The notes below the pieces were generated by a model that was not told where the DNA came from, did not search any database, and was given only the letters and a program-made list of their open reading frames with translations. A DNA stretch of 54,153 bases, from positions 1 through 54,153 of the forward strand of contig PAPR01000014.1 of the NCBI GenBank assembly GCA_002709085.1. Direction: 5' to 3'. The number at the start of each line of letters is the position of its first letter. Positions within the stretch are counted from its first letter, which is position 1. Below, one piece after another: positions 7,864 through 44,937 of this stretch. A program made the position numbers and the translations under genes. Source of the DNA: Pseudooceanicola sp. Its GTDB lineage: Bacteria > Pseudomonadota > Alphaproteobacteria > Rhodobacterales > Rhodobacteraceae.

Positions 7864-7992
7864 CGAGGTCTCCGTAAAAGCTAGTGACCGATTAACAACG
7901 CGCGGCAGGAGTTCGTTCCACCCTCCGGACCACTATAACGTGACGTCGACGAGTCTTTGCCGGTTGCGGTGTCGGGACTCGTCAAACAGATA

Positions 7993-8015
7993 TACGCCCC
8001 GTTGATAGGGGCGTA
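7993..8015 (-). terminator. acs: Hairpin terminator downstream of acs
   Basis: A perfect 8-bp inverted repeat TACGCCCC / GGGGCGTA with loop GTTGATA, 41 bp past the acs stop. On the minus strand it is followed by TATCTGTTTG, a weak U-rich tail. It is the only strong stem between acs and the preceding secreted-protein gene. Confidence 0.6.
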
Positions 8016-8056
8016 CCATTTTGTGCACTAAACATGAAATCCATGTAAATCGCAAA

Positions 8057-10006: not shown

Positions 10007-10299
10007 GATCGCGCTCCTTCACTCGTCTGTCGGATACCGGCCGTGGTCTTGACGGCCTGTTGTGTCTGGCCCGGTGTTTCGGGTCCGGTGATTGTCGGGC
10101 CCACCATCCGGGGGGCTGTTCGCTGGCGCTTATAACACCGTCTCGCCGGGTGTTGCACCACGTGAGTGACGATCGCGCGGTCGGGGATGCGGGCGCCAGT
10201 GATGGGCGCGCCAGACCGGGCGAGGCCCAAGCGCGCGGTGGGCCGGGGCCGGACCGTGCAGCGGGCTGATGCACGGCCTTCCTGCTTTTGAACGTTTTG
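10007..10299. other. acs: Intergenic region upstream of acs
   Basis: This 293-bp stretch must hold the acs promoter. It contains short frames but none with a good start and recognisable product. It adjoins the IS256 relic and may include more decayed IS sequence that is no longer recognisable. Confidence 0.4.
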
Positions 10300-10486
10300 C
10301 ACCATTTAGACCGGGAACAGAACGATGAGTGGGCCGTCGCCCGCCGCGACATGCCGGTGGAAAAGCTGAAAGCGATGTGAAACGATCCCGAGGCGGGGAC
10401 GATGATCCCCGCATAGTGAACGAGCGACATCAGCTATGAAGACTGAGGTGGACGACTGTTCCTACGCCACTTTTGGCGACACTGCC
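10300..10486 (+). mobile_element. Relic of the right end of an IS256-family insertion sequence
   Basis: In the frame of base 10309 the plus strand reads REQNDEWAVARRDMPVEKLK and then a TGA at 10378-10380. Reading on gives NDPEAGTMIPA and a TAG at 10414-10416. The EQNDEWAVARR-M-x-x-E segment followed by ND-P is the characteristic C-terminus of IS256-family (MULE-like) transposases. About 45 bp later, TACGCCACTTTTGGCGACAC (10463-10482) resembles the terminal inverted repeat of that family, which typically reads TACACCACTT...GGGACAC. Only the transposase tail and right end remain, with in-frame stops, so this is a dead fragment. Identified from memory of family sequences. Confidence 0.65.
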
Positions 10487-10573
10487 GGACTACCCCTCTC
10501 TAACTGGCGCGAACGCGAAAACGGGGCTGGGCATCGCGCCGGGTCGGTGATTGACTAGCCTTACGGAGGGTCC

Positions 10574-11134
10574 ATGCCCAGTCTCAATCGTATCGTGATG
10601 CGGCGCAGCAGCCGTAGTTGGATAAAGGCACTTACACCGCACAGTCTGCGGGTGGCGGAGATCAGCGGAAGGTGGGGCGAATCCTTCAACTTTCGCAGCT
10701 ACGACCAGTTTCGCTATCCAGAGTACGACATCTGCACCGGCCCGTTCAGAGGTGTGGATGGCCGTCCGCTGAAATTCGATCTGATCATCGCCGATCAGGT
10801 CTGGGAACATCTCGACCGGCCATATGGCGCGCTCAAGAACGTGGTTAAAATGCTGCGCAAGGGCGGGCATTTCTATATCGCGACGCCGTTTTTCATTCCC
10901 TATCACGGCGCGCCGATCGACTGTTCGCGCTGGTCCGCGCGTGGCCTGCGCAACTTGTTGATCGAGGGCGGCTTTGCGCCGGAGGGGATCCGCGCCGAGC
11001 AATGGGGTAATCGGGCAGCCGCGCAGCGGAATCTGGAAAAGCCATGGCCGCCGCAGTATGACGAGACGCGCGACGATTTGACCGACGATCCGGACTTTCC
11101 GCTGACAGCATGGGCCATTGCGCAGAAACTCTAG
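10574..11134 (+). CDS. Small class I SAM-dependent methyltransferase-like protein
   Basis: A 186-aa protein with Methyltransf_11/23-type features. ADQVWEHLDRPYGALKNVV followed by MLRKGGHFYIATPF corresponds to motifs II-III of class I SAM-binding folds, and a C-terminal segment (GLRNLLIEGGFAPEGIRAE) has the usual late beta-strand region. The N-terminal Gly-rich motif I is shortened (LRVAEISGRWGESF) and atypical, so the domain may lack a full SAM site or bind it differently. The substrate is unknown. It lies next to an IS relic, with the SOS gene uvrA downstream. The start ATG follows TTACGGAGGGTCC, a strong ribosome-binding site. Confidence 0.75.
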   Translation: MPSLNRIVMRRSSRSWIKALTPHSLRVAEISGRWGESFNFRSYDQFRYPEYDICTGPFRGVDGRPLKFDLIIADQVWEHLDRPYGALKNVVKMLRKGGHFYIATPFFIPYHGAPIDCSRWSARGLRNLLIEGGFAPEGIRAEQWGNRAAAQRNLEKPWPPQYDETRDDLTDDPDFPLTAWAIAQKL

Positions 11135-11204
11135 GGGTCTGACAGCGTCGGGTCTGATCGGATCCTGTGCCGCTACCGGCATATTTTGGCTGCGTCGCGT
11201 CAAA

Positions 11205-11219
11205 GTTCGCGGTATGTTC
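11205..11219 (+). promoter_or_regulatory. uvrA: LexA (SOS) box upstream of uvrA
   Basis: GTTCGCGGTATGTTC is an exact GTTC-N7-GTTC direct repeat, the LexA-binding consensus of alphaproteobacteria. It lies 65 bp upstream of the uvrA ATG, where a repressor would block the promoter. Confidence 0.8.
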
Positions 11220-11284
11220 CTCATTAACCCTTGGAAGCGGGGGCCGCGTCACCTACTTCTTACCCATTCACTGCCGGGGGGCAC

Positions 11285-14146
11285 ATGGCCGAGCTGAAGA
11301 ACATCGAGGTGCGCGGCGCGCGCGAGCACAACCTCAAGAACATCGACGTCGATATTCCTCGCAACGAACTTGTGGTGATCACGGGCTTGTCCGGGTCGGG
11401 CAAGTCGTCGCTGGCGTTCGACACGATCTATGCCGAGGGTCAGCGTCGTTACGTGGAATCGCTGTCGGCCTATGCGCGGCAGTTCCTCGACATGATGGAA
11501 AAGCCGGACGTCGATCATATCTCGGGCCTCAGCCCCGCGATTTCCATCGAACAAAAGACGACGTCAAAGAACCCGCGCTCGACCGTCGGCACGGTGACGG
11601 AGATCTATGACTACCTGCGCTTGCTGTTTGCCCGCGCCGGCACGCCCTATTCCCCCGCCACCGGACTGCCGATCGAGGCGCAGCAGGTTCAGGATATGGT
11701 CGACCGTGTCATGGGCATGGAAGAGGGCACGCGCGGCTATCTGCTGGCCCCGATGATCCGTGACCGCAAGGGTGAATACCGCAAGGAATTTCAAGAGTTA
11801 AAGAAGCAGGGATTCCAGCGGGTCAAGGTCGATGGCGCCTTTTACGAGATCGAGGATGTGCCGAGCCTCGACAAGAAGCTGCGCCATGACATCGACGTGG
11901 TGGTCGACCGTATCGTCGTGCGTGAGGGGATGGAGACGCGGCTGGCGGATTCCTTCCGCACCGCGCTGGATCTGGCGGACGGGATTGCGATCCTTGAAAC
12001 CGCGCCGAGCGATGGCGGGGCGAGCGAACGTTTCACCTTTTCCGAGAAATTCGCCTGCCCGGTCAGCGGGTTCACCATATCCGAGATCGAGCCACGCTTG
12101 TTCTCGTTCAACGCGCCGTTCGGGGCCTGTCCCGACTGCGGCGGCCTGGGGGTCGAGCTGTTCTTTGACGAACGGCTCGTCGTACCGGACGCCACGCTTC
12201 GGATCGCCGATGGCGCGCTGGCCCCGTGGCGGAAAGGCAAGTCGCCCTACTTCCTCCAGACCATCGAAGCCATTGCGAAACATTACGAATTTGACAAGAA
12301 GGCCCGCTGGAAGGATGTCCCGGCACATGTCCAAAAGGTGTTCCTGCACGGCTCGGGACGAGACGAGATCAAGTTCCGCTATGATGAGGGGGGCCGCGTC
12401 TATCAGGTCTCGCGCACCTTTGAGGGCGTCATCCCGAACATGGAGCGGCGCTACCGCGAGACCGACAGCAGTTGGGTGCGTGAGGAGTTCGAGCAATATC
12501 AGAACAACCGCCCCTGTGGCAGTTGCGACGGCTACCGGCTGAAGCAAGAGGCCTTGGCGGTCAAGATTGCCTCGCTCCACATCGGTCAGGTCGTGCAGAT
12601 GTCGATCCGCGAGGCAGCGGATTGGTGCGAGACGGTGCCGGAGTCGCTCAGCAACCAGAAGAACGAGATCGCGCGCGCCATTCTCAAGGAGATCCGCGAG
12701 CGGCTCGGTTTTCTTAACAACGTCGGGCTGGAGTACCTGACGCTGGCGCGAAACTCCGGCACGCTTTCGGGCGGGGAAAGCCAGCGCATCCGGCTCGCCA
12801 GCCAGATCGGGTCGGGGCTGACGGGCGTGCTTTACGTGCTCGACGAACCCTCCATCGGGTTGCACCAGCGCGATAACGGACGGCTGCTGACGACGCTGAA
12901 AAACCTTCGTGATCAAGGCAATACGGTGATCGTGGTCGAACACGACGAAGAAGCGATCCGCGAGGCGGACTACGTCTTTGACATCGGACCGGGTGCGGGG
13001 ATTCATGGCGGTGAGGTCATAGCGAAGGGCACGCCCGACCAGATCATCAAGAACCGCGACAGCCTGACGGGCCAATACCTCGCCGGGACGCGCGAAATCA
13101 CCGTGCCGGCGAAGCGGCGCAAGGGCAACGGCAAGGCGCTGACGGTGGTCAAGGCGGTGGGCAACAACCTCAAGGAGGTGACGGCGGACTATCCGCTTGG
13201 CCAGTTCGTCTGCGTCACCGGTGTCTCGGGCGGCGGCAAGTCGACGCTGACAATCGAGACGTTGTTCAAGACCGCCTCCATGCGGCTGAACGGGGCCCGC
13301 CAGACGCCCGCGCCTTGCGAGACGATCAAGGGGTTGGAACATCTCGACAAGGTCATCGACATCGACCAGCGCGCGATCGGGCGCACGCCGCGGTCGAACC
13401 CTGCGACCTACACCGGCGCTTTCACCCCGATCCGGGACTGGTTCGCCGGTCTGCCGGAGGCCAAGGCGCGCGGCTACAAGGCCGGTCGCTTCAGCTTCAA
13501 CGTCAAGGGCGGGCGCTGTGAGGCCTGTCAGGGCGATGGCCTGATCAAGATCGAAATGCACTTCCTGCCGGACGTTTATGTCACCTGCGAAACCTGCAAC
13601 GGCGCGCGCTACAACCGCGAGACGCTGGAGATCAAGTTCAAGGGCAAGTCCATCGCCGACGTGCTGGACATGACGGTGGAGGATGCGCAGAGCTTTTTCA
13701 CCGCCGTGCCGTCGATCCGTGAGAAGATGGATGCGCTGGTGCGGGTTGGTCTCGGCTACATCAAGGTCGGCCAGCAGGCGACGACCCTTTCGGGCGGTGA
13801 GGCGCAGCGCGTCAAACTATCCAAGGAGTTGGCGAAACGCTCCACCGGGCGCACGCTATATATTCTCGACGAACCCACCACAGGGCTGCATTTTGAAGAT
13901 GTGCGCAAGCTTTTGGAAGTGCTGCACGAATTGGTGGATCAAGGCAATTCCGTTGTGGTGATCGAACACAACCTCGACGTCATCAAGACGGCGGATTGGC
14001 TGATCGACATCGGCCCCGAGGGGGGAGATGGCGGCGGGCAGATCGTCGCCACCGGCACGCCGGAAGATGTCGCGAAGGTCGAGGGGAGCCACACGGGGCA
14101 CTACCTCGGTCCGATGTTGAATGCGGGGCAGGTCGCAGCGGAATAG
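11285..14146 (+). CDS. uvrA: Excinuclease ABC subunit A
   Basis: ATP-dependent damage sensor of nucleotide excision repair; loads UvrB at lesions. The 953-aa product starts [20 protein letters not shown]. An in-frame TTG extension upstream was rejected because the ATG at 11285 has a GGGGGG-containing ribosome-binding site and the family start. The first ABC module has Walker [10 protein letters not shown] at 34-42 and signature [14 protein letters not shown]; the second has Walker [10 protein letters not shown] and [15 protein letters not shown]. Zinc-binding cysteines are visible in CPDCGGLG and the [18 protein letters not shown] block. It is preceded by a LexA box, so DNA-damage induction is expected. 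Confidence 0.97.
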
Positions 14147-32269: not shown

Positions 32270-33193
32270 TTACCGCCTGTCGGCAACTTCGTCGGGGCGT
32301 TGTTCGCGCAAACGGCGGCGGTGCGTAATGATCTCTTCCTGCACGAAATCGCGGAAGGCGGCGATGCGTTTGGAATGGCGCAGCTCTTCGGGGAAGGCGA
32401 GAAACACAGGAACCTCCTCGGATTCCACCTCGGGCAAAACGCGTTCGAGTGTCGAGAAATCCTCGACGAGGTAATCCGGTAGCACGCCGATGCCGAGACC
32501 GTTGATGACCGCCTGCAAGACCCCGAAATAGCTGTTCACGGTCAGTGAGGATGACACATCGTTGCTGAGCAGATCTTGCACCAGACGCGCGCCGGCGGCG
32601 ACCTGCGCGGCAGCGGGACTTTGACAGATCAGGCGATGGCGCGAGACATCCTCGATCGAGCTTAACCGCCCCTGCCGGTCCAGATATTCGGGGCTGGCAT
32701 ACATCCGCATGCGAACGGACATCAGGCGCTTGCGGATGAGGTCGGCCTGGCTGGGTTCCTTCATGCGGATGGCGACATCGGCCTCGCGCATGGGCAGGTC
32801 CAGCACGCGTTCCTCTAGCATCAGGTCGATCCTCAGATCGGGGTATTTCTCGTAGAATTTCGGCAGGCGCGGCGCCAGCCACAGGGACCCGAAACCCGTC
32901 GTGGTGGTGACGCGCAATTCGCCAAACACCTCTTCCTCGCTGTCGCGGATCCGCGCGGTCGCTGTTTCCAGCCGTTTCATCATCGCACGCGTGGCGTCAA
33001 ACAGCAGCTCACCCTGTTCCGTGAGAATCAGCCCGCGCGCATGGCGATGAAAGAGCGTGGTGTTCAGCGATTCTTCCAGCCCGCGCACCTGGCGCGAGAC
33101 GGCGGATTGCGACAGGTGCAATGCATCCCCCGCATGGGTCAGGCTGCCGGCATCCGCGACCGCGTGAAATATTCTGAGCTTGTCCCAGTCCAT
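32270..33193 (-). CDS. LysR-family transcriptional regulator
   Basis: A 307-aa regulator with an N-terminal helix-turn-helix (MDWDKLRIFHAVADAGSLTH, DALHLSQSAVSRQVRGLEES) and a LysR effector domain (about 90-290). The ATG at 33193 was preferred to a GTG three codons upstream. Two neighbours could be targets: the divergent indolepyruvate ferredoxin oxidoreductase gene with a 155-bp shared region, or distant genes. Homologues in this order often lie next to trxB, which is absent here. The basic tail THRRRLREQRPDEVADRR is unusual but short. Confidence 0.87.
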   Translation of the reverse strand: MDWDKLRIFHAVADAGSLTHAGDALHLSQSAVSRQVRGLEESLNTTLFHRHARGLILTEQGELLFDATRAMMKRLETATARIRDSEEEVFGELRVTTTTGFGSLWLAPRLPKFYEKYPDLRIDLMLEERVLDLPMREADVAIRMKEPSQADLIRKRLMSVRMRMYASPEYLDRQGRLSSIEDVSRHRLICQSPAAAQVAAGARLVQDLLSNDVSSSLTVNSYFGVLQAVINGLGIGVLPDYLVEDFSTLERVLPEVESEEVPVFLAFPEELRHSKRIAAFRDFVQEEIITHRRRLREQRPDEVADRR

Positions 33194-33348
33194 GAAACTC
33201 ACTTTCCGTTATAATTGATCGCTGCCCCGAAATTATCCGTCACATAATCTGGATGAGGCGTTGAAGTAAGGCTAACAGGTCAAATATTCTTTATTGGTCA
33301 TATACTGTGACCTACTTTTAATCTATGGTGGCGTTCAGGGAGACCATT

Positions 33349-36300
33349 ATGACCAAACACGATATTTCGCTGTCCGATCGCTTTGACGTGGAAAAAAGCC
33401 CGGTGCTGCTAAATGGCACGCAGGCGCTGGTACGCCTGATGCTGATGCAAAAGGCGCGCGACAAGGCCGCTGGTCTGAACACCGCGGGTTTTGTCACCGG
33501 ATATCGTGGATCGCCCTTGGGCGCTGTCGACATGCAGATGAACCGCGCGGCCAAGCAGTTGGTCGCAGCGGATGTGAAATTTCAGGAAGGTCTGAACGAG
33601 GACCTCGCCACCACCGCCCTATGGGGCGCGCAACAGGCCGAATTGCGCGGCGAGGGCAAGTTCGACGGCGTCTTCGGTCTTTGGTACGGCAAGGGGCCGG
33701 GGGTCGATCGCTCCGGCGATGCGATGCGTCACGCCAACATGGCAGGAACCAGCCGCAACGGCGGGGTCCTGATGGCGATGGGCGACGATCACACCGGTGA
33801 AAGTTCGACCGTTCTGCACCAGTCCGAATGGGCGTTGGTGGATGCCTACATGCCGATTGTCAGCCCCGCGGGCGTACAGGAAATCCTCGATCTGGGTCTC
33901 TATGGCTATGCCTTGTCGCGGTATTCCGGCCTCTGGGTCGGGTTGAAATCGATGAAGGACACTGTCGAGGCCACCTCGGTGGTCGATGGTCGGATCGACC
34001 GGATGAAGCTGATCATGCCGGAGGATTTCGCGATGCCTGAGGGCGGGCTGAACATCCGTCTGGGCGACAGCCCGCCGGAGCAGGAAACGCGGATGATCGA
34101 CTACAAGCGATTTGCCGCAGAGGCTTTTGCGCGGGCCAATCGCATCGATAAACGGGTCTGGGGCAAACCCGGTGCTCGGATCGGTTTCGTTGCGGCGGGA
34201 AAGAATTGGCTCGACCTGCAACACGCCATGGCGCTTCTCGGCATCGACGCGGCCGAGGCCGAGCGTCTGGGCATCACCACCTATAAGGTCGCACAGGTCT
34301 GGCCGCTGGACGTGCAGGGCTTTCACGAATGGGCCGAAGGACTGGACCTGATCGTGGTGGTCGAGGAAAAGCGCAAGCTGATCGAAGTCCAGATCAAGGA
34401 GGCGCTGTTTGACGACAATCGCTTCCGGGTCTGGGGCTGGTACAAGGGCGGAGCGGGCGGGCTGCACCGCGAAGAACTCTTCCCGACGCGCGGTGCGCTC
34501 GATCCGATCTGGATCGCGCAAAAGCTGGGCGATATCCTGATCGATGAGGGGCGGGAGACCGACCGCATCCGCGCCGGACTTTCATCCCTTGCGGACGCCA
34601 AGCGTAACGACAACGCGCCTGAAATCGCGGCCCGCCTGCCGTATTTCTGCTCCGGTTGTCCGCATAATACTTCGACCAAGGTGCCGGATGGATCGCGTGC
34701 CTACGCCGGGATCGGCTGTCACTATATGGTGCAGTGGATGGATCGCGACACCAGCGGATTTACCCATATGGGGGCCGAGGGCGCGAACTGGATCGGCGAG
34801 GCGCCGTTTTCGACCACGGAGCACATTTTCCAGAACCTCGGCGACGGCACTTACAACCACTCCGGCGTGCAGGCGATCCGCGCCGCACTCGCCAGCGGTG
34901 TGAACATCACCTACAAAATTCTTTACAACGACGCGGTCGCCATGACCGGCGGGCAAAAGAACGAGGGCGGGCTGACCGCCGACCGGATCGCCAATGAGCT
35001 GAAAGCCATGGGCGTCGGCAAGATCGCCGTGGTCTTTGACGAAAAGGAAGAGCCCGCGCGCGAGGATTTCCCAAAGGACGTCACCTGGAATGAACGCGCC
35101 GACATGGAGACCGTGCAGGAGGCGATGCGGCAGGAAAAGGGCGTCTCGGCGATTATCTACATACAGACCTGCGCCGCCGAAAAGCGTCGTCGTCGCAAGC
35201 GCGGCCAATTCCCGGACCCGGACAAGCGGGTCTTTATCAACACCGATGTCTGCGAAGGCTGCGGCGATTGCGGGGTGCAGTCGAATTGCGTCTCCATCGT
35301 GCCAATGGACACCGAACTTGGGCGGAAACGCGCGATCGACCAGTCTTCCTGCAACAAGGATTATTCCTGCCTCAAGGGGTTCTGCCCGTCGTTCGTCACG
35401 CTGGAAGGCGCGCAGCTCAAGAAAGCCTCGGGGCAGGGGATCGCGCTGCCTGATCTGCGCGAACCGGTTCTGCCGGCAATCCACGGCACACATAATATCG
35501 TCATAACCGGGGTTGGGGGCACCGGCGTCGTCACCATCGGCGCGCTGCTGACCCAGGCGGCGCAGGTCGATGGCAAGGGCGCGGGCATGATGGAAATGGC
35601 CGGTCTCGCCCAGAAGGGCGGCGCGGTGCACATCCACGTCCGCCTGGCCGAGAAACCCGACGACATCAGCGCGATCCGCGTCGCCACTGGCGAGGCACAT
35701 GCGTTGATCGGTGGCGATATGGTGGTCAGTGCCGGGTCTAAGACACTGGGTCTGACAAAGCCGGGCCAGACCGGCGCCGTGGTCAATTCGCATCAGATCA
35801 TCACGGGCGATTTCACTCGTGACACCGAATTCCGTATCCCTTTTGACCGTCTGGAAATGCAATTGCAGGCGCGGCTGAAGGATCGGATTTCGCTGTTCGA
35901 TGCCTCGGAGCTGGCCCGCGTCTTGATGGGCGACTCGATCTTTTCCAACATGATGGTGCTGGGGGCCGCCTGGCAAAACGGGCTGCTGCCTCTGTCGCTC
36001 GAGTCGATCGAGGAGGCCATACGCCTGAACGGTGCGGCCATCGAAAAGAACCGCGAGGCCTTTGCCATCGGTCGATGGGCCGTGCTTTATCCCGAGGACG
36101 CCGCGCGCCGGATCACATCCGAGACCGTCGTCGACAAGCCGCGCAGCATCGAGGAACAGATCGACTACCGCGCCGACCGGCTGGTGGAGTATCAGGGCAA
36201 GCGGCTGGCCAGGCGGTTTCGCAAGCTGGTCGATCACGCGGGTGAGGCGACCGGAGATGAGGCGATGCGGCTGGCCGTCGCCAAGGGTTATCACAAGGTG

Positions 36301-36780
36301 CTGGCCTACAAGGACGAATACGAGACCGCGCGATTGCTGCTATCGACCCGCAAAAAGGCCGAGGCCGAGTTTGAGGGCGATTTCCGGATGTCGTTCCATA
36401 TGGCGCCGCCGGTGCTCAGTCGTACCGGGCCTGATGGTCGCCCGCAAAAACGCCGGTTTGGTGAATGGATGAAGCTGCCGTTCGGTGTGCTCGCTCGTCT
36501 CAAGGGACTGCGCGGGACGCCGCTCGACCCCTTCGGGCGAAGCGAAGAGCGTCGGATGGAGCGTGCGCTCATCACCCAGTACGAGGCCGATATGGCCGAG
36601 GTTCTGCCCAACATGACCGACGCCACCCGCGACATCGCGATTGCGCTGGCCGAGCTGCCGCTGAAGATTCGCGGCTTCGGTCCGGTCAAGGCCGCGAACG
36701 AGGCGAAGGCGGCGAAAGAGCGTGAAGGCCTGCTGTCCGCGTTCCGTGCCGGGGGCGGGATGAAACACGCGGCGGAATGA
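33349..36780 (+). CDS. Indolepyruvate ferredoxin oxidoreductase family protein (fused alpha-beta)
   Basis: A single 1143-aa chain joining the thiamine-diphosphate, ferredoxin and gamma-type domains. Such enzymes oxidise aryl or branched 2-oxo acids to acyl-CoA. Order: pyrimidine-binding-like domain (YRGSPLGAVDMQMN, MGDDHTGESSTVLHQSEWA), ThDP domain with CSGCPHNTSTKVPDGSRAYA and the acidic ThDP motif in GAEGANWIGEAPF, then a [4Fe-4S] segment CEGCGDCGVQSNCVSI with a further Cys cluster (SSCNKDYSCLKGFC), and a C-terminal gamma domain starting ITGVGGTGVVTIGALLTQAA. The ATG at 33349 follows CAGGGAGACCATT; eight upstream residues were dropped. Divergent from a LysR gene. Confidence 0.9.
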   Translation: MTKHDISLSDRFDVEKSPVLLNGTQALVRLMLMQKARDKAAGLNTAGFVTGYRGSPLGAVDMQMNRAAKQLVAADVKFQEGLNEDLATTALWGAQQAELRGEGKFDGVFGLWYGKGPGVDRSGDAMRHANMAGTSRNGGVLMAMGDDHTGESSTVLHQSEWALVDAYMPIVSPAGVQEILDLGLYGYALSRYSGLWVGLKSMKDTVEATSVVDGRIDRMKLIMPEDFAMPEGGLNIRLGDSPPEQETRMIDYKRFAAEAFARANRIDKRVWGKPGARIGFVAAGKNWLDLQHAMALLGIDAAEAERLGITTYKVAQVWPLDVQGFHEWAEGLDLIVVVEEKRKLIEVQIKEALFDDNRFRVWGWYKGGAGGLHREELFPTRGALDPIWIAQKLGDILIDEGRETDRIRAGLSSLADAKRNDNAPEIAARLPYFCSGCPHNTSTKVPDGSRAYAGIGCHYMVQWMDRDTSGFTHMGAEGANWIGEAPFSTTEHIFQNLGDGTYNHSGVQAIRAALASGVNITYKILYNDAVAMTGGQKNEGGLTADRIANELKAMGVGKIAVVFDEKEEPAREDFPKDVTWNERADMETVQEAMRQEKGVSAIIYIQTCAAEKRRRRKRGQFPDPDKRVFINTDVCEGCGDCGVQSNCVSIVPMDTELGRKRAIDQSSCNKDYSCLKGFCPSFVTLEGAQLKKASGQGIALPDLREPVLPAIHGTHNIVITGVGGTGVVTIGALLTQAAQVDGKGAGMMEMAGLAQKGGAVHIHVRLAEKPDDISAIRVATGEAHALIGGDMVVSAGSKTLGLTKPGQTGAVVNSHQIITGDFTRDTEFRIPFDRLEMQLQARLKDRISLFDASELARVLMGDSIFSNMMVLGAAWQNGLLPLSLESIEEAIRLNGAAIEKNREAFAIGRWAVLYPEDAARRITSETVVDKPRSIEEQIDYRADRLVEYQGKRLARRFRKLVDHAGEATGDEAMRLAVAKGYHKVLAYKDEYETARLLLSTRKKAEAEFEGDFRMSFHMAPPVLSRTGPDGRPQKRRFGEWMKLPFGVLARLKGLRGTPLDPFGRSEERRMERALITQYEADMAEVLPNMTDATRDIAIALAELPLKIRGFGPVKAANEAKAAKEREGLLSAFRAGGGMKHAAE

Positions 36781-36812
36781 CCCTATGCGCGGTTCCGGCT
36801 GCCGAGCCGGGG

Positions 36813-36830
36813 CCGCACTGGTCGGTGCGG
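36813..36830 (+). terminator. Weak hairpin after the IOR gene
   Basis: CCGCAC-TGGTCG-GTGCGG, a 6-bp perfect stem 32 bp after the stop, followed by TGTTTCTGGG. It may end the 3.4-kb transcript; the T-tract is poor. Confidence 0.3.
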
Positions 36831-37016
36831 TGTTTCTGGGTTTGCAGGTGTGCTCGGCATCGGGACGGGCGCTAATGCGGCGCGTGAGGATGAGCTGGCC
36901 TTTGGTCAGACCCGCCCGGACCTCGCCCGCATCGGCCCATCGCAATTTGCGCCGCTCACTTTGCCAAATGCCCCATTTTGCCAAATGGCCCGTCGAAACT
37001 CCGGCACCGGAAATTC

Positions 37017-37928
37017 TCAGTCCCTGCGGGATGCCTTGCGGCTGGAAGGAGGGGTGACGACGGCGACATCCACGCTTTGCTCTGACGTCGAGGTGCCCGC
37101 GCCCCGCATGGAGCCGCGCACAGGCGCGATATCGTCGTAGTCGCGGCCATATCCAATCGCGATGTAGTCGATGCCGGCAACCTGATTGTTGGTTGGGTCG
37201 AATTCGACCCAGCCCAGCTCAGGCCCGACCCAGGCCCGCACCCAGGCGTGCATGGCGTCCACGCCGATCAGTCGGTCCTGACCTGGCGGCGGGTAGGTGC
37301 GCAGAAACCCCGAGACATAGCCCGCCGGAATCCCCACCCCACGCAGACAGGCGATCATGATGTGCGAAAAATCCTGACAGACACCGGCACGGGCGGCAAA
37401 GGCATCCGACGCTTCGGTATCGACGTCCGTGGCATCGACCGCATATGTCATTTCGCTGTGAATCGCCGCCCCGATCGCGCGGACCGCGTCCAGCGCCGTG
37501 CCGCCGGGGCGAATGTGGTCGCGCGCAAAGGCGGTCATTTCGTAATTGACCGGCGCGCGGCGGGTGGTGGCGGTGAAATGCAGGGGCGATTGAGGGGTCG
37601 CATCGCGGTTGGCGCTCAGCACCGCGGGCAGCCGGCGCATCGAGGTGGCCAGTGACAATCGTGGCGCATCCGCATGTCGGTGGACGCGAAAGGAGAGCGC
37701 AATCTTTACCTCCTCGACCGGGCGATGCCAGACGGCGGAGGTCACGTTGTTGCCAAAGTAATCGGTGAAATGGCCTTGCTCGGAGGGGGGGGAGGTCAGG
37801 GTCAGCGACCAATCCTCGATCCGTTGCACTTCCGCGATGTCGCGCGGCAGCAGACGCAGCAGGTTCCGGGTCTGATCCGTCGGCTGCGAATAGGTGTAGT
37901 TGATGTTGAGCGTGACGTCGTAAAGCAT
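37017..37928 (-). CDS. Transglutaminase-like cysteine protease family protein
   Basis: A 303-aa protein with a bacterial transglutaminase N-terminal domain (about 1-110, YDVTLNINYTYSQPTDQTRN, then RLLPRD) and a transglutaminase core (about 140-260). The catalytic triad is intact: C184 in AGVCQDFSHI, H227 in DAMHAWVRAW, D244 in VEFDPTNNQ. Such domains cleave or form amide bonds in peptides. It starts 4 bp after the stop of the ATP-grasp/alpha-E gene and is the last gene of the cluster. In many bacteria the Anbu peptidase gene would follow here; instead there is a spacer and a convergent IOR gene. The start was chosen at MLYDVTLNIN; 22 upstream residues belong to the overlapping frame. Confidence 0.88.
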   Translation of the reverse strand: MLYDVTLNINYTYSQPTDQTRNLLRLLPRDIAEVQRIEDWSLTLTSPPSEQGHFTDYFGNNVTSAVWHRPVEEVKIALSFRVHRHADAPRLSLATSMRRLPAVLSANRDATPQSPLHFTATTRRAPVNYEMTAFARDHIRPGGTALDAVRAIGAAIHSEMTYAVDATDVDTEASDAFAARAGVCQDFSHIMIACLRGVGIPAGYVSGFLRTYPPPGQDRLIGVDAMHAWVRAWVGPELGWVEFDPTNNQVAGIDYIAIGYGRDYDDIAPVRGSMRGAGTSTSEQSVDVAVVTPPSSRKASRRD

Positions 37929-37932
37929 GGGA

Positions 37933-40344
37933 TTACCGCAAATGCGCCTCCGCCAGCAGGTCGGACATGCCCGAGAGGGCGAGGCGCAGATCACCCAAGG
38001 CCTCGGTCGTCATGTCAGCGGCTTGACCCACCTCGAGCTGGGTCCGGATCGGCAGAAGCTGGCGCACCAGCACACCGGGTCGGGCAGAGAGGGCGGCACC
38101 GGGCAGCGCCTCTGCGAGCGTCTGCACTTCGCGCACCTGATAAAGGACCGACCGGGGGTTGCCGGCGTCATGTGCCAGAAGGTCGACAACGGTCTCCCGG
38201 GTGGCGCCGAGCGCGTAGCGGCGGCGGTGCGCCATGCGTCCGTCCGCGACCTCCAGCGCGATGTCCAGCGCGCCTTCGGGGGCCTCGGGATCGGCGTAGG
38301 TTTCGAGCACCGCGGCCAAGCTATCTGCGCGCTCCAACGCCCGCCCGATGGTCAGGAACCGCCAGCCGAAAAAGCGATACATGTTGTCATTCACCATGCC
38401 CGAGAACCCGGCGGTCTTGCGCAACAGGACGCTCATCGCGCGTGCCGCATCATCGCCGGGCTGCGCCGAAGCGGCCATCTCGCGTGTCGTTGTGATCAAA
38501 TCGCTCAGCGCGTACCATCCATCTGTGGAAAAGCGGTCGCGCACCTTGGCGGCACAATTATGCGCGGCCTGAAGCCGGTTCAGCAGACCGTCCGGGACCG
38601 GTTGATCCACGTCGATGCCAAGCGGGGCGAGATCCTCGGCGATGTAATCCAGCAATTTGTCATCGGCCCGGTCGCTGGTCGCGAGGCGCAGATGATAGGC
38701 GCGCAGCAATCGCGCGACGTCCTCAAAGCGCACGATGTAGCGGCCCAGCCAAAAGAGGTTATCCGCGGCGCGCGCCGGTAGGGCGCCGGCCTCGGTCTGC
38801 GCTGCATGCTCGCCATCGAGGTCCGGCGTCGGCAGCACACTTTTGGGATCGGGGACGCGGTCGTCCGACAGGATCAGCACATCCGCAACGCTGCCGCCGC
38901 GCTGCATGGCCAGGGCGGTGGCGTCGCCCTCGGGGCCGATGCGCGCGTAACCGCCCTGCATGAAGGTCCAGCCCTTGGCCGTGCGCGCGGCAAAGACCCG
39001 CACGGTCATCGGCCCCGGCGTCACGCGCGGGCCCTTGTCGGTCTCGCGCCATGTCGGGGTGGTCGAGAGGGTCACGGCCTCCTGACCGATGAGGTCCGGC
39101 GCATCGTGGTCCAGGAGTTGCACGATCTCGGGCTCGACTCCGCGCACCGTTTCGGAATTGCTGTCAAAGGGCAGATCGACAGACATGGCGGGCGCGATCA
39201 GCAGCTGGTGCACGTTTTCGCGCACAAAGGCGCGCGCGGCCTCGTCTCCGCACCACCATGTCGCGATGTTGGACATATGCAGGGGCCGACCCGTCAGAAC
39301 CTCGCTGATGCGCGGCAGGAAGGCCATCAACGCCCGCGTTTCCAGCACGCCCGAGCCGAGCGCATTGACCATCGCGAGAGAGCCGGAGCGCACCGCATCC
39401 ATCAGCCCCGGTACCCCGATGCGCGAGTCCGGGTGGAAATCCAGCGGATCGGAAAAATTCGCGTCGATCCGGCGCCACAACAGGCCGAGCGGTTCCGGCC
39501 CCTCGATCGTGCGGACCATGGCCTGGCCGTTCTGGACCACGATGTCCTCGCCCTCCAGCAGCAGAAGGCCGAGGTAGCGGGCGATGTAGAGATGTTCGAA
39601 AAAGCCGTCGTTGGCCCGACCGGGCGTCAGCAGGCCGTAGGCGTGTGGTTCACTTCGGTTCGCGGTGGCAAGGCTGTGCAGGGTTTCGCGGAACGCCTCG
39701 AAAAAGCCGGACAGCCGCAGGGTATGCGCGTTCGGGTAATCCTCGGGAAACACCCGGCGCATGGCCATGCGGTTTTCCAGCGCGAAACCTGCCCCCGAGG
39801 GCGCCTGCGTGCGGTCGCCGAGCACTAGCCATGACCCATCCGGTGAGCGTCCGATCTCAAACGCGAGGTAGTGCAAATAATGCCCGCCGCGCGGCTCCAC
39901 CCCGACCATGGGACGTTTCCAATGGGCGTTTTCGGTGACCAGACGCGGGGGCAGGTGCCCTTCACTCAGCAGCCGGGCGGGCCCGTAAAGGTCGGCCATC
40001 ACCATTTCCAGCAGATCGGCACGCTGGCTGAGACCGGCACAGATGTCGGCCCATTCGGTTTCGTGCAGCAGGACGGGGAGGTTGGACAGGGGCCAGTCAC
40101 GTTCGTTTAACGGGTCTTCGGAATACTGGCGGAAATAGACGCCCGCGTCGCGCAGGTACTGGCGGCCCCGCTCGAACTTGGCGCGCAGCGCATCCTCGGG
40201 CAGGGCCGAGAGCATCTCGATAAACGGTTTCCAGACAGGACGCATGACACCGTCGCGGTCGAACAATTCGTCCGCCACGCCATCGGTCGGCGCGTAAGCC
40301 TCAAGAAGCGGGCTTTTCGCGCCGGATCTGGTCGGTGTGTCCAT
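37933..40344 (-). CDS. Circularly permuted ATP-grasp type 2 / alpha-E fusion protein
   Basis: An 803-aa fusion. The first two-thirds (about residues 60-480) form a circularly permuted ATP-grasp domain (DUF404/DUF407, CP_ATPgrasp_2): FRQYSEDPLNERDWPLSNLP region, GLLTPGRANDGFFEHLYIAR, LGLLWRRIDANFSDPLDFHP. The last third (about 528-800) is the alpha-helical alpha-E domain, starting ARAADNLFWLGRYIVRFEDV. ATP-grasp amidoligases join carboxylates to amines, so this enzyme is predicted to build a peptide or isopeptide; alpha-E is thought to assist. Many genomes encode the two domains separately, as adjacent genes; here they are fused. The gene ends 4 bp before the transglutaminase start and begins 18 bp after the DUF2126 gene. 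Confidence 0.88.
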   Translation of the reverse strand: MDTPTRSGAKSPLLEAYAPTDGVADELFDRDGVMRPVWKPFIEMLSALPEDALRAKFERGRQYLRDAGVYFRQYSEDPLNERDWPLSNLPVLLHETEWADICAGLSQRADLLEMVMADLYGPARLLSEGHLPPRLVTENAHWKRPMVGVEPRGGHYLHYLAFEIGRSPDGSWLVLGDRTQAPSGAGFALENRMAMRRVFPEDYPNAHTLRLSGFFEAFRETLHSLATANRSEPHAYGLLTPGRANDGFFEHLYIARYLGLLLLEGEDIVVQNGQAMVRTIEGPEPLGLLWRRIDANFSDPLDFHPDSRIGVPGLMDAVRSGSLAMVNALGSGVLETRALMAFLPRISEVLTGRPLHMSNIATWWCGDEAARAFVRENVHQLLIAPAMSVDLPFDSNSETVRGVEPEIVQLLDHDAPDLIGQEAVTLSTTPTWRETDKGPRVTPGPMTVRVFAARTAKGWTFMQGGYARIGPEGDATALAMQRGGSVADVLILSDDRVPDPKSVLPTPDLDGEHAAQTEAGALPARAADNLFWLGRYIVRFEDVARLLRAYHLRLATSDRADDKLLDYIAEDLAPLGIDVDQPVPDGLLNRLQAAHNCAAKVRDRFSTDGWYALSDLITTTREMAASAQPGDDAARAMSVLLRKTAGFSGMVNDNMYRFFGWRFLTIGRALERADSLAAVLETYADPEAPEGALDIALEVADGRMAHRRRYALGATRETVVDLLAHDAGNPRSVLYQVREVQTLAEALPGAALSARPGVLVRQLLPIRTQLEVGQAADMTTEALGDLRLALSGMSDLLAEAHLR

Positions 40345-40362
40345 GACCTCCTCCGGGGATGG

Positions 40363-43300
40363 TTACATCAATCCGGGTGGGCGTCTGAGGTCAAGCGTCA
40401 TCCGGAACTCGGGGTGCGGAGTTTCGGGCTGTGGCCGGTAGGGCGCAGGGGTGTGGCCGTTCGGTTCGAACCGGGCAAGGCGACGGGCCTCGGCCTCGTA
40501 ACCATTGATCGGGAAGGTATCGTAGTTGCGCCCGCCCGGATGCGCGACGTGATAGGTGCAACCCGCCAGCGCATGGCCCGTCCAGTCGTCGTAAATATCG
40601 AACAGGAGCGGCGCACTGACCGGCAGGGTCGGATGCAGCGCCTCTGCCGGTTGCCATGCCTTGAAGCGGACACCGGCGACCGACACGCCCGAGGTCTGGG
40701 TGCGGGTCATCGGCACCGGGCGACCGTTGCACATGATGCGGTAGCGATCCTGATGCAGCGAGGTCATCTTGACCTGCATCCGTTCGACCGAACTATCGGT
40801 GTAGCGCACCGTGCCACCGATCGCGCCGGTTTCGCCCAGCACATGCCAAGGCTCCAGCGCCTGCCTGACCTCCAGATGCACACCCTCGGCCTCTATCTGT
40901 CCGCAGAACGGGAAGCGGAACTCGGCCTGCGCCTCGAACCACTGGGGATCGAGGTCAAAGCCGTGATCGCGCAGATCGTTCAGCAGGCTGGTGAAATCCT
41001 CCCACAGGTAGTGCGGCAGCATGAAGCGGTCATGCAGCACCGTGCCCCATCTGACCGGGCGGCCGATGACGGGGTTTTCCCAGCACCGGGCGATGATAGC
41101 GCGCAGCAGGACCTGCTGGGCCAGAGACATCCGGGGGTCCGGCGGCATCTCAAAACCGCGGAACTCCACGAGGCCAAGCCGACCTGTCGGCCCATCCGGC
41201 GAGAACAGTTTGTCGATGCAGATTTCGGCGCGGTGCGTGTTGCCGGTCACATCCGTCAGCATGTTGCGCAACAGCCGGTCGACCAGCCATGGGGGCGGGA
41301 CCTCGCCGGCCTTGGGCGCGTTGATCTGCGATAGCGCGATTTCCAGCTCGTAGAGTGTGTCGTGCCGCGCCTCGTCGATCCGGGGGGCCTGCGAGGTCGG
41401 GCCGATGAACAGCCCGGAAAACAGGTAGGACAGCGACGGGTGACGCTGCCAGATCAGGATCAGCGATTTCAGCAGATCGGGGCGGCGCAGGAAGGGCGAG
41501 TCATTCGTCGTCGCGCCGCCGACCACGACGTGGTTGCCGCCGCCGGTGCCGGTGTGACGCCCGTCGATCATGAACTTGTCCGCGCCGAGGCGAGAGGTCC
41601 GGGCCTCCTCATAGATCGCCTCGGTCGTGGCGACGCAGTCATCCCAACTGTGCGCGGGGTGAATGTTGACCTCGATCACGCCGGGGTCGGGGGCGACGCG
41701 AATGACGTTGAGACGCGGATCGCTCGGCGGGGAATAGCCCTCGATATGGATCGGCAGATTGAGTTCGGCGGCGGTTTCCTCGGCTGCGGCGATCAGTTCG
41801 AGGTAGTCCTCCAGCCGGTCGCAGGGCGGCATGAACAGGCACAGACGACCATCGCGCGGCTCAATGGCGATGGCGGTGCGGACCGCGCCGATCGACGGAT
41901 CATCAGGGTCGGAAAGGGCGTCCTGTTCCACGCGGGACTGACGATCGTCGTCGCCTTCAAGCGGCACGGCACGGGATTTCTGCCGCCTCTCGGCGCTTTC
42001 CTCGGGCATCAGGCGCGCGCGCTCACCGGCTTCTTCGGCTTCGAGGTCGGCGATCTCAGCATCGACGGCGCGGCGACGTCTGGCGATCTCTTCGTGGTAA
42101 TCGGGCAGGGGGGCGCGATCCTCGGTGGTGTCGGCGGGATAAGAATAGGGATAGCTCGACGGGGGGATATGCTTGAGCGCGCCAAGAGGCAGGCGGAACC
42201 CGACAGGGCTGTCGCCGGGGACGAGAAACAGCTTTCCGCGCCGGGGTTTCCAGAGTTCGGATTTCCACTTGGACGCCTTGCCCTGCCAGCGCTGGATCGG
42301 CAAGACGTAGCCCGCCGCCTCGGTCAGCCCGCGATTGAAGACGCGGGCGTATCTGGCGCGGTCCTCGGGGTTCTTCAGCTTGGCGTTTTCGGGGGTGACG
42401 TTGGAGGGCAGGTTGGCCTCTTTCAGGATCCATTCCGCCGGGTCCTCAAAGGCAGGTTGGGCGAAATCCGCTTCCAGCCCTAGCGCCTCGGCGAAGCGAC
42501 CCATAAACGCGCCGGCCTCTTCGGCGCCGGCCTTCGTGTCGTCCTTTTCCTGCGCGATGAGGTCCGTGTCACGCCAGACCGGCTGGCCGTCCTGACGCCA
42601 GTAAAGCGAGAAGGTCCAGCGCGGCAGGCTCTCGCCCGGATACCATTTGCCTTGTCCGTAGTGCAGGAAACCACCGGGGGCAAAGCGATCCTTCAGCTTG
42701 CGGATCAACGTGTCGGCCAGCGCGCGTTTCTGCGGACCGACGGCCTCGGTGTTCCATTCGGGTGATTCAAAATCGTCGACCGAAACAAACGTCGGCTCCC
42801 CCCCCATGGTCAGACGCACATCGCCTGCGGTCAGGCGTTCGTCGACGTGATGGCCAAGCGCGTTTAACCTGTCCCAAGCCTCGTCGGAGAAGGGTTTGGT
42901 GATGCGCGGATGCTCGGCCACCCGGTTGATCTGCATGTCGAAATCGAAGGTGACCTCGGGCTGGCCGGAGGCCTGAAATCCCCCTGCAATCGGCGCGGCG
43001 TTGCGGTAGTGGGGCGTGGCGGCCAGCGGAATATGGCTCTCCCCCGTCATCAGGCCGGAGGTCGGATCAAAGCCGATCCAGCCCGCACCGGGCAGGTAGA
43101 CCTCGCACCAGGCGTGCAGGTCGGTGAAATCGTGATCGGTGCCGGAGGGGCCATCGAGAGCTTCGAGATCCGGTTTCAACTGGATGAGATAGCCCGACAC
43201 AAAGCGCGCCGCAAAGCCGAGGTGCCGCAGCGCCTGCACCAGAAGCCACGAGGAATCGCGGCAGGAACCCGAACCGATGGTCAGCGTCTCCTCAGGCTCG

Positions 43301-43800
43301 TAAACGCCGGGCTCCATGCGGATGGTGTAGTCGACCGCTTCGGAGACGAGGCGGTTGATCTCAACGAGGAAATCGACCGTGCGCGCCTCATCACGCGGGA
43401 TGGTCGCCATGAAGTCCGCGAGGCGAGGCGTCATCGCCTCGGGCGTACGATAGATCGAGAGGTCCTCGATCAGCTCTTCGGGATAGTCGAAGGGCCAGAC
43501 CTCTGCCGTGTCATCGACAAAGAAATCGAACGGGTTGTAGACGGTCATATCCGCGACCAGATCGACCTCGATCTTGAATTCGCGCACCGGCTCGGGAAAG
43601 ACGAAGCGGGCCAGCCAGTTGCCGTATGGGTCCTGCTGGTGGTTCACGAAGTGCCCGCCGGGGCTAACCTTTAACGAATGAGAGATCACGCGGGTCCGCG
43701 AATGCGGCGCGGGACGCAACCGGATGATCTGCGGGCCAAGCGTAACTGGCCGGTCATATTTGTAATGGGTCAGGTGATAGATGCTTGCGTGGATTGCCAT
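40363..43800 (-). CDS. Transglutaminase-DUF2126 protein
   Basis: A 1145-aa protein. The N-terminus (1-110) is the bacterial transglutaminase N-domain ([20 protein letters not shown]). The transglutaminase core follows with a complete triad: C180 in [13 protein letters not shown]229 in [12 protein letters not shown]245 in [11 protein letters not shown]. Residues about 310-1120 are DUF2126, a large domain with segments such as [20 protein letters not shown] and [17 protein letters not shown]2126 has been related to the glutamine-synthetase-like amidoligase fold, so the protein may both make and cut amide bonds (prediction). A charged low-complexity insert (about 590-660) separates parts of it. 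First gene of the ATP-grasp/transglutaminase operon. Confidence 0.88.
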
Positions 43801-43971
43801 GGGTCGCCCGTATTATCGCGCCGGGGTCATGCCCGACGGGGATGAGACTGCGGTAAGCCCGCGCGGGATGATACGCACGCCGCCCTCGTGACGATACAAG
43901 TCCCGGAAATCTTTGCAACCGTGCCACTTTATTCGGCACCTCGGATCGCGGGACAGGCGGCGCCCCGCTGA

Positions 43972-44937
43972 TCAGGCGGCGGGTGAAATCCTCAGGTGCC
44001 CATGCGCAAAGGCGAATTTGCGCCGCACCCCTTCGGGCAGGATGAACGGGTAGACATCCGGCAGGTCCAGCGCCCGATTGACGTGGTTCACCGCGATCGA
44101 AATGGCGACGGCCTGACTGACCACCGTTTCGGTATCGCGATCACCATAGGCGTCGTAGCCGGGCATCGGCCCGCCGGGAAGCGAGAGGTTGGTCGCAGAG
44201 GCACTGTCGATCAGGTCGACGAGGTGCAAAAGATGCGCGATGGTTTCCGCCCAGTCCTCATGCGGGTGAGCCGTGGCGTAACTGGTGATATGGTCATCAT
44301 CCGCCGGGCGCGGTGCCTCGTAGTGCCGCTTGAGCGCCTCGCCGTAGTCGGCAGTCTCGTCGCCGAACATCGCGCGAAAATCAGCGAGGAATTGCGGATC
44401 GCTAGACAGACGCAAATGCAGGAAATGCGCGATTTCATGGCGCATATGGCCGATCATGGTGCGGTAGAGTTCGCCCAGGTTTTCCTGACGATGCGCGAGC
44501 ACGGCGTCCGAAGCTTCGGTGACGTTGATCGTGATGAGCCCGTCGTCGTGGCCCATGGTGACCTTTTCCTGACCCTGCTGGGTCTGTTCCGACAGCATCT
44601 TGAAAGTGGGGCGGTCGCCGGTATCGGAGTGGGTGAACCATCCCCATTTGCCCAGGTTGGCGATCACCCATCGTTTCGCCAGCTCGCTATGCTCCCACAA
44701 CGGCAGGTTGTCGGGTTCGCGCAGGTCCGGCACGACCTCGGTCATCGCGCAGGACCGGCAGAGGCCATCGGTCTCGGCCAGCCAGTTGCAGCCGATCTCG
44801 TCCCGGTTTTGGCAGAAGGGGCCGTCGCTCTGCATGACCTGACGTTCCGCGTCAAAGGCAACGGCCTGACCGCAGGTACAGGCGAGGTTGTGGAAATAGA
44901 CGGGGGACGAACAGGTGGGACATTGAAAGATTTGCAT
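43972..44937 (-). CDS. Zinc-ribbon putative zinc-binding metallopeptidase (Peptidase_Mx-like)
   Basis: A 321-aa protein. Residues 1-65 form a zinc-ribbon-like region with many cysteines (C6, C9, C20, C22, C42, C50, C60, C63). The rest (about 70-315) has the HExxH zinc-peptidase motif H167-E-I-A-H171 in MRHEIAHFLHLRL, with a downstream Glu/Asp-rich segment (FGDETADYGEALKRHYEAP; EDWAETIAHLLHLVDLI) giving likely third ligands. The start was set at MQIFQCPTCSSPVYFHNLAC; the long in-frame extension upstream is non-coding. It is 171 bp upstream of the DUF2126 gene on the same strand. The family is often found with ATP-grasp/alpha-E/transglutaminase genes, where it may remove peptide tags, by inference. 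Confidence 0.83.
   Translation of the reverse strand: MQIFQCPTCSSPVYFHNLACTCGQAVAFDAERQVMQSDGPFCQNRDEIGCNWLAETDGLCRSCAMTEVVPDLREPDNLPLWEHSELAKRWVIANLGKWGWFTHSDTGDRPTFKMLSEQTQQGQEKVTMGHDDGLITINVTEASDAVLAHRQENLGELYRTMIGHMRHEIAHFLHLRLSSDPQFLADFRAMFGDETADYGEALKRHYEAPRPADDDHITSYATAHPHEDWAETIAHLLHLVDLIDSASATNLSLPGGPMPGYDAYGDRDTETVVSQAVAISIAVNHVNRALDLPDVYPFILPEGVRRKFAFAHGHLRISPAA

Follow-up and report, generated by a model that had tools for sequence, protein, structure and literature searches.

A DUF2126-transglutaminase gene cluster of Pseudooceanicola sp. as a possible accessory module of an ATP-grasp/alpha-E amide-bond system

What might a cluster of ATP-grasp, transglutaminase and zinc-peptidase genes do when the proteasome-like protein Anbu, a usual partner of such genes, is missing from it? 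This question is raised by positions 37017-44937 of a 54,153-nucleotide stretch of DNA from the alphaproteobacterium Pseudooceanicola sp. (contig PAPR01000014.1, assembly GCA_002709085.1), hereafter the window. A sequence-only reading had described four co-directional genes on the minus strand here, and Pfam bore out the domains that it assigned, all of them over cut-off. We tentatively favour, at slightly less than an even chance, the view of the cluster as an optional accessory module that belongs to a known ATP-grasp/alpha-E amide-bond system used in nitrogen stress, the core of which lies elsewhere in the genome.

43972..44937, minus strand: Peptidase_Mx zinc metallopeptidase (PF15887, 241 bits) with an N-terminal zinc ribbon (Zn_ribbon_DZR_6, PF10005, 35.6 bits); 321 aa from the ATG at 44937, in an open reading frame (ORF) open to 45384
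40363..43800, minus strand: transglutaminase-like domain (residues 6-246) fused to DUF2126 (residues 281-1139), a predicted glutamine-synthetase-fold amidoligase; Bact_transglu_N, Transglut_core and DUF2126 (1325 bits)
37933..40344, minus strand: circularly permuted ATP-grasp (residues 90-469), predicted inactive, fused to alpha-E (residues 522-801); CP_ATPgrasp_2 (405.5 bits) and Alpha-E (178.5 bits)
37017..37994 (ORF), minus strand: small transglutaminase-like protein, likely starting at the ATG at 37928, 4 bp past the fused gene; Bact_transglu_N and Transglut_core

Relatives were drawn from a class sample of 192 genomes, a phylum sample of 279 genomes that overlaps with it, and 80 named DUF2126 loci.

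Apparent loss of the ATP-binding site from the fused ATP-grasp protein

The fused protein retains the circularly permuted ATP-grasp fold, as indicated by Pfam, by its sequence match to the solved structure 3n6x (E 3.1e-69) and by a predicted model (pLDDT 91.8) whose best fold matches include 3n6x (E 2.4e-29) and glutathione synthetases, the eukaryotic enzyme among them. An alignment was built of 98 fused proteins and, as 14 standalone rows, 12 complete proteins plus both halves of a Halomonas gene that is split in two. Every standalone row spanning a given motif site shows the identical residue, and the Glu and Asn of the L-E-D-N motif and the Lys preceding the glycine loop are each kept in 13 of the 14. 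In the fused proteins, the Glu survives in 1/98 (L165) and is mostly replaced by G, A or S, the Asn survives in 0/98, with Arg in 92, and the Lys in 8/98; the S-G-G-Y-G loop is gone and the sequence is variable where it stood. An alignment-free count of the K-SGGYG motif gave 0/98 fused proteins vs 13/14 standalone rows. The strict motif was missed by 6 of 30 standalone ATP-grasps, four with AGGYG and two with SGGKG or SGGAG, all of which keep E-D-N.

The lost positions presumably correspond to the residues with which eukaryotic glutathione synthetase holds Mg and ATP, and the Glu, Asn, Lys and glycine loop of the relatives are taken to be their Mg and ATP binders; in the alignment, these ligands and the loop are absent from the window's fused protein. 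With the ATP and Mg residues lost and the fold kept, the fused copy is predicted to be a pseudoenzyme, which runs counter to the ligase role that the sequence-only reading had given it. That reading had itself named missing ATP-binding residues as evidence against its claim; here the loss is judged from sequence. A standalone member of the family, from Yersinia bercovieri, releases phosphate from ATP according to the available part of PMC6376114.

Long frames of the fused type (798-879 aa) were also seen in five genomes with no DUF2126 match (G010, G036, G046, G059 and G159), so the fused protein may occur without DUF2126.

DUF2126 as the likely ligase

Because the fused ATP-grasp lacks the ATP and Mg residues, the likely ligase of the module is the DUF2126 domain, whose glutamine-synthetase-like fold is a published prediction (PMC2588565) that our fold search backs weakly; the sequence-only reading had not mentioned that DUF2126 is a predicted amidoligase. 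Pfam labels DUF2126 a putative amidoligase, and the accessible text of PMC2588565 treats the transglutaminase-fused Rv2566 family as part of the carboxylate-amine ligase superfamily, suggests peptide formation, and discusses the family alongside the Pup ligase and gamma-glutamylcysteine synthetases. An AlphaFold model of the DUF2126 protein (pLDDT 83) matched transglutaminase-like chains first (3isr) and, over 265-298 columns, glutamine synthetase and gamma-glutamylmethylamide synthetase (GmaS; Foldseek probability 0.66-0.96, E 0.011-0.076). A search of solved structures with the DUF2126 alignment returned transglutaminase-like chains only. Residues E687, E710, H757, E879 and R881 are invariant in 64/64 DUF2126 proteins, as expected of a catalytic site, the positions being aligned rather than superposed. 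The alignment used for modelling left out 41 of the 80 named-locus DUF2126 proteins and, from the class sample, L036, L039 with in-frame stops, L042 and L055.

The other putative enzymes of the cluster appear intact. The transglutaminase triad of the DUF2126 protein (C180/H229/D245) is kept in 64/64 proteins, while C185 and H228 of the small transglutaminase are kept in 21/21 and its D245 in 20/21, two of these rows being of the Anbu-operon type. The HExxH motif and the zinc ribbon of the Peptidase_Mx protein are present, as judged by Pfam and by conserved residues: H167, H171, E227, E231 and H235 are conserved in 22/22 aligned sequences and E168 in 21/22. The view of the set as a peptide- or amide-bond system is supported, the catalytic residues being kept in both transglutaminases and the HExxH protein; that of the ATP-grasp protein as its ligase is not. 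Rv2566-Rv2569c of Mycobacterium tuberculosis are presumably the same four genes as those of the window, with Rv2569c, we assume, the counterpart of the small transglutaminase. In the excerpted text of PMC11081392, Rv2569c is described as a YebA-superfamily protease.

Conserved order of the DUF2126 module

DUF2126 is present in 29 of the 192 class-sample genomes. The order DUF2126, fused ATP-grasp/alpha-E, small transglutaminase, all on one strand, recurs in 69/80 named loci and in 23/29 class-sample loci (the window counted), far beyond chance. Of the 11 named loci that do not show this order, a contig end cuts six, four are without the neighbours, and one (L199) has all three genes and failed the order rule only through overlapping frames. 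The gap between DUF2126 and the fused gene is <60 bp in 57 of the 72 named relatives in which it was measured, as in a single transcript. The same order was found on plasmid or second-replicon records of Burkholderia, Enterobacter and Granulicella, and the best DUF2126 relatives include those of Thioclava marina (Rhodobacterales, 79% identity) and of a metagenome-assembled genome (MAG) labelled Sphingomonadales (79%).

Several loci depart from the common layout. In one genome a single island (L301, G233:C1:3280000-3298000) holds Peptidase_Mx, standalone alpha-E and ATP-grasp, DUF2126, fused ATP-grasp/alpha-E and a small transglutaminase. Anbu lies <=8 kb from DUF2126 in at least 12 phylum-sample genomes (for example, G256, G220 and G246), which shows that beyond the window's class Anbu can be a neighbour of DUF2126 clusters. 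On a plasmid of Halomonas sp. PA16-9 (L206, 5514-15698), the coding sequences of ATP-grasp and DUF2126 are broken into several frames, through decay or sequencing error.

A standalone ATP-grasp core elsewhere in the genome

In the class sample, a standalone ATP-grasp is present in 76/192 genomes overall and in all of those with DUF2126 (29/29), Anbu (59/59) or a strong Peptidase_Mx match (14/14), and alpha-E stood beside it in 30/30 places fetched, covering all 29 DUF2126 genomes. This co-occurrence was written down as a prediction and then tested on the 279 genomes of the phylum sample, where "standalone" was set by score (best E 1e-143 or better in all 161), without a residue check. There, a standalone ATP-grasp was found in 161/279 genomes overall, 86/86 with DUF2126, 107/109 with Anbu and 50/51 with Peptidase_Mx; in the phylum genomes outside the class sample, the figures were 83/83, 96/98 and 48/49, respectively. 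Since shared ancestry inflates p-values, we relied on the counts instead. The two Anbu genomes with no standalone ATP-grasp match, G272 and G420 (locus L304), belong to one family (f154); the sole Peptidase_Mx exception is G265 (L305), whose Peptidase_Mx scores 326 bits against that of the window.

The window's own genome also carries such a core. The sequence-only reading had called the cluster one without Anbu, proposing a genome-wide search and naming a nearby Anbu gene as the finding that would speak against it; the search came close to that, with a homologue on another contig, and the absence holds for the window's contig only. Two members of the proteasome family were found in the assembly. 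The first (L001) is taken, from its score and length, to be HslV. The second is Anbu, at G000:C52:15825-16556; its matches to solved Anbu structures range from E 1.2e-85 to 4.8e-65. It stands behind standalone ATP-grasp, alpha-E and transglutaminase genes (L003), a complete set in which the ATP-grasp copy keeps an intact ATP-binding loop, so the genome has both types of cluster. The gene order on C52 is that given for the Anbu operon in the available part of PMC6376114. The assembly is 77% complete and in 78 contigs.

A possible link to nitrogen limitation

Published expression data point to the condition in which such genes may act. According to the excerpted data of PMC5491218, under nitrogen limitation an ntrC mutant of Burkholderia cenocepacia H111 showed log2 changes of -8.2, -9.4, -9.4 and -6.0 in I35_5080-5083, annotated as DUF404/407, DUF403, transglutaminase-like and large transglutaminase-like, and of -4.8 and -6.5 in glnA and glnB. 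In another strain of B. cenocepacia (L203), ATP-grasp, alpha-E, transglutaminase, DUF2126, fused ATP-grasp and small transglutaminase genes stand in a row, from which we infer that the large protein I35_5083 is a DUF2126 protein. In Pseudomonas putida, Anbu and ATP-grasp were up by log2 4.44 and 3.99 on nitrate vs ammonium, according to the accessible part of PMC8050072, and in Acidithiobacillus caldus ntrC and glnL are found less than 5 kb from a cluster that has two Anbu-like genes.

This last cluster, on a megaplasmid (L204, 1843-22166), includes DUF2126 and also lies near an aliphatic amidase gene; its DUF2126 reads in two frames ~1.1 kb apart and may be interrupted there. A sigma54/NtrC promoter upstream of the window cluster was also considered and set aside, the consensus scan giving it no support; the window itself gives no sign of nitrogen control.

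Proposed function

The accessory-module reading draws on observed gene content and order, residue loss, intact triads, co-occurrence with a standalone ATP-grasp and coexistence with Anbu; glutamine-synthetase-like catalysis, a scaffold role, the substrates and a nitrogen role in this organism are what we infer. With ATP, the DUF2126 domain would activate a carboxylate of glutamyl type and couple it to an amine, giving an amide or a gamma-glutamyl/isopeptide bond. The fused ATP-grasp/alpha-E protein, having kept its fold and lost ATP binding, could serve as a non-catalytic partner for substrate binding or docking, possibly in a pair with the active standalone ATP-grasp/alpha-E. Both transglutaminase-like domains would transfer or hydrolyse such bonds through a Cys-thioester, and the zinc peptidase Peptidase_Mx would trim the product, working with Anbu rather than in its place. 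The core of the system would be the standalone ATP-grasp and alpha-E, here with transglutaminase and Anbu, elsewhere in the genome, and its physiological setting would be nitrogen limitation.

A number of observations weigh against this reading. The Foldseek E-values for the glutamine synthetase-like matches are modest; hhalign of DUF2126 against the genome's glutamine-synthetase family proteins (three, later four) gave a non-significant probability of 0.5-0.9%, a small profile limiting its sensitivity; and our literature search on DUF2126 gave no biochemistry. In the fused ATP-grasp, certain site residues never vary (98/98), so its pocket is under constraint. The co-occurrence with the standalone ATP-grasp may stem in part from common ancestry and genome size and is no proof of dependence. 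On the nitrogen side, the fused gene and the small transglutaminase are not listed as NtrC targets in the available part of PMC5491218; the best sigma54-like site upstream of the window cluster matched 7/11 positions in a consensus scan, and a score of >=9 was reached by 6/77 relatives vs 2.6% of shuffles, which is a weak excess. Linkage of Peptidase_Mx with DUF2126 is seen in a minority: Peptidase_Mx lies near it in 9/80 named loci and 3/29 class loci and within 8 kb in 12/51 phylum-sample genomes, and in two genomes of the same family it is far away (~430 kb in G417, and likewise distant in G442). Finally, in one genome (L117, G140:C1:589500-605500, 7513-12139) Peptidase_Mx sits in Anbu's usual place behind ATP-grasp, alpha-E and transglutaminase, and two genomes of one family (G003 and G120) have it beside DUF2126 and are without Anbu.

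A bolder version of the accessory module, unlikely to hold as a whole, is a nitrogen-starvation machine for amide bonds in which a glutamine-synthetase-fold ligase took over from the ATP-grasp. Throughout the subfamily, the dead copy would have been retained to act as a scaffold, paired with the live ATP-grasp/alpha-E that is encoded elsewhere. The zinc peptidase and Anbu would both recycle what is made, which might be a polymer that stores nitrogen or a reversible mark on proteins.

Alternative explanations

The cluster might instead tag proteins in a manner resembling pupylation, DUF2126 attaching glutamate or a short peptide that the transglutaminases and peptidases remove. The superfamily shared with the Pup ligase (PMC2588565, as excerpted) would fit, as would the proteasome-like nature of Anbu, and tagging is a published hypothesis (PMC6376114, in the part available). 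Against it, PMC2588565 remarks that these neighbourhoods hold no small Pup-like ORF, and the Anbu proteins assayed in PMC6376114 had no peptidase activity; the short gaps between DUF2126 and ATP-grasp noted above leave little room for a small ORF, although no small-ORF search was made. We regard tagging as rather unlikely.

It is quite unlikely, in our view, that the fused ATP-grasp has remained an active ligase by way of an altered site, in which the new conserved Arg and a neighbouring Asp have taken over. The fold is kept with high confidence, R429, D282 and D468 (standalone reference numbering) are invariant in 98/98, K467 is kept in 26/98, and the eight proteins that keep K367 include the Burkholderia, Enterobacter and Granulicella copies. 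However, Glu, Asn, Lys and the glycine loop, presumed Mg and ATP binders in the relatives, were lost together, and the sequence varies where the loop was.

Peptidase_Mx could also be a chance neighbour of the window's cluster and stand outside the system, which we hold to be improbable. The minority linkage, the unlinked and similar copies in the two same-family genomes, and the distance of the window's Peptidase_Mx from other linked copies speak for chance. On the other side, the window's exact four-gene order and strand reappear in a Loktanella MAG (L167), alone among the 80 named loci; Peptidase_Mx is convergent in L156 and L303 and divergent in seven further named loci. It also lies beside ATP-grasp in L288 and beside Anbu in three genomes (G280, G340 and G407), where 24-45 bp separate the two matches and both ATP-grasp and alpha-E adjoin them. 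Of the 65 Peptidase_Mx genome entries (14 + 51, from the overlapping samples), 64 have ATP-grasp; within the ATP-grasp genomes, DUF2126 is found with Peptidase_Mx in 39/50 vs 47/111 without it in the phylum sample, and in 9/14 Peptidase_Mx genomes vs 20/62 others in the class sample. Weak or broken Peptidase_Mx matches were left out of these counts, namely G349, G359 and G406 in the phylum sample and G064, G078, G100, G139, G184 and G188 in the class sample, three of the latter being over the Pfam cut-off. The Loktanella protein falls outside the well-supported clade of three that contains the window's Peptidase_Mx, which suggests that the four-gene arrangement arose more than once; loss elsewhere is also possible.

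Peptidase_Mx and Anbu are companions. Anbu occurs in 12/14 class-sample genomes with strong Peptidase_Mx vs 47/178 without it, and in 37/50 vs 70/111 of the phylum-sample genomes with a standalone ATP-grasp; within ATP-grasp genomes, no exclusion of one by the other was seen (Fisher p 0.72 in the class sample, 0.21 in the phylum sample). A general replacement of Anbu by Peptidase_Mx is rejected on the basis of co-occurrence in both samples and of the neighbourhoods. The original proposal of an Anbu-less ATP-grasp ligase cluster with the HExxH protein as substitute hydrolase is thereby very improbable: the position taken by Peptidase_Mx in L117 and its place beside DUF2126 in the window and in the two Anbu-less genomes would suit it, but the window's own genome has Anbu in a complete set, G140 has two Anbu genes elsewhere, and Peptidase_Mx and Anbu are neighbours in three other genomes.

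The accessory-module reading has testable points, namely that ligation in the DUF2126 module is probably not the work of the ATP-grasp protein, that the standalone ATP-grasp is always present in the sampled DUF2126 genomes, and that published NtrC data name a condition. It also calls for caution before the fused ATP-grasp is treated as catalytically active or Peptidase_Mx as a replacement for Anbu.

Surroundings of the cluster

36781..37016: 236-bp spacer (ORF coordinates), preceding a convergent gene outside the system
33325-36780, plus strand: indolepyruvate oxidoreductase, the next gene beyond the spacer

Both agree with the first description of the locus. The flanks look ordinary, with thymidine kinase and FMN reductase on one side, where a further gene reads like carB (an identity from reading, with no search), and the oxidoreductase on the other. 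The latter is a single 1151-aa chain with alpha- and beta-type parts, adjoined by a LysR-type regulator at 32270-33202.

Comparison with known systems

The window cluster is well preserved and of a known kind, in a widespread family: the standalone ATP-grasp of the ATP-grasp/alpha-E/Anbu family was counted above in 76 class-sample and 161 phylum-sample genomes. The interest left lies in the subfamily-wide loss of the ATP-grasp site, the invariable co-occurrence with a standalone ATP-grasp in the sampled DUF2126 genomes, and nitrogen limitation as the condition in which to seek the product. With the Anbu operon (ATP-grasp, alpha-E, transglutaminase, Anbu), of which this genome has a separate complete set, the cluster shares homologous ATP-grasp, alpha-E and transglutaminase; it differs in having DUF2126, a fused degenerate ATP-grasp/alpha-E and Peptidase_Mx, and in lacking both an Anbu gene and a standalone ATP-grasp with an intact loop. 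Compared with the transglutaminase-DUF2126 family of the M. tuberculosis Rv2566 type (PMC2588565), it has the same three-gene core, order and strand as 69/80 named loci, whereas a same-strand Peptidase_Mx directly upstream is found in 1/80 (L167). Part of the DUF2126 model may be alike in fold to glutamine synthetase and gamma-glutamylmethylamide synthetase, with no significant sequence similarity to the proteins of that family in this genome. RimK/RimB and Rlo, as presented in the available part of PMC12239564, likewise pair an ATP-grasp protein with a protease, and Rlo has a transglutaminase-like protein; there, however, the partners are an aspartic protease and an inactive membrane transglutaminase, and that part of the source mentions neither DUF2126 nor alpha-E.

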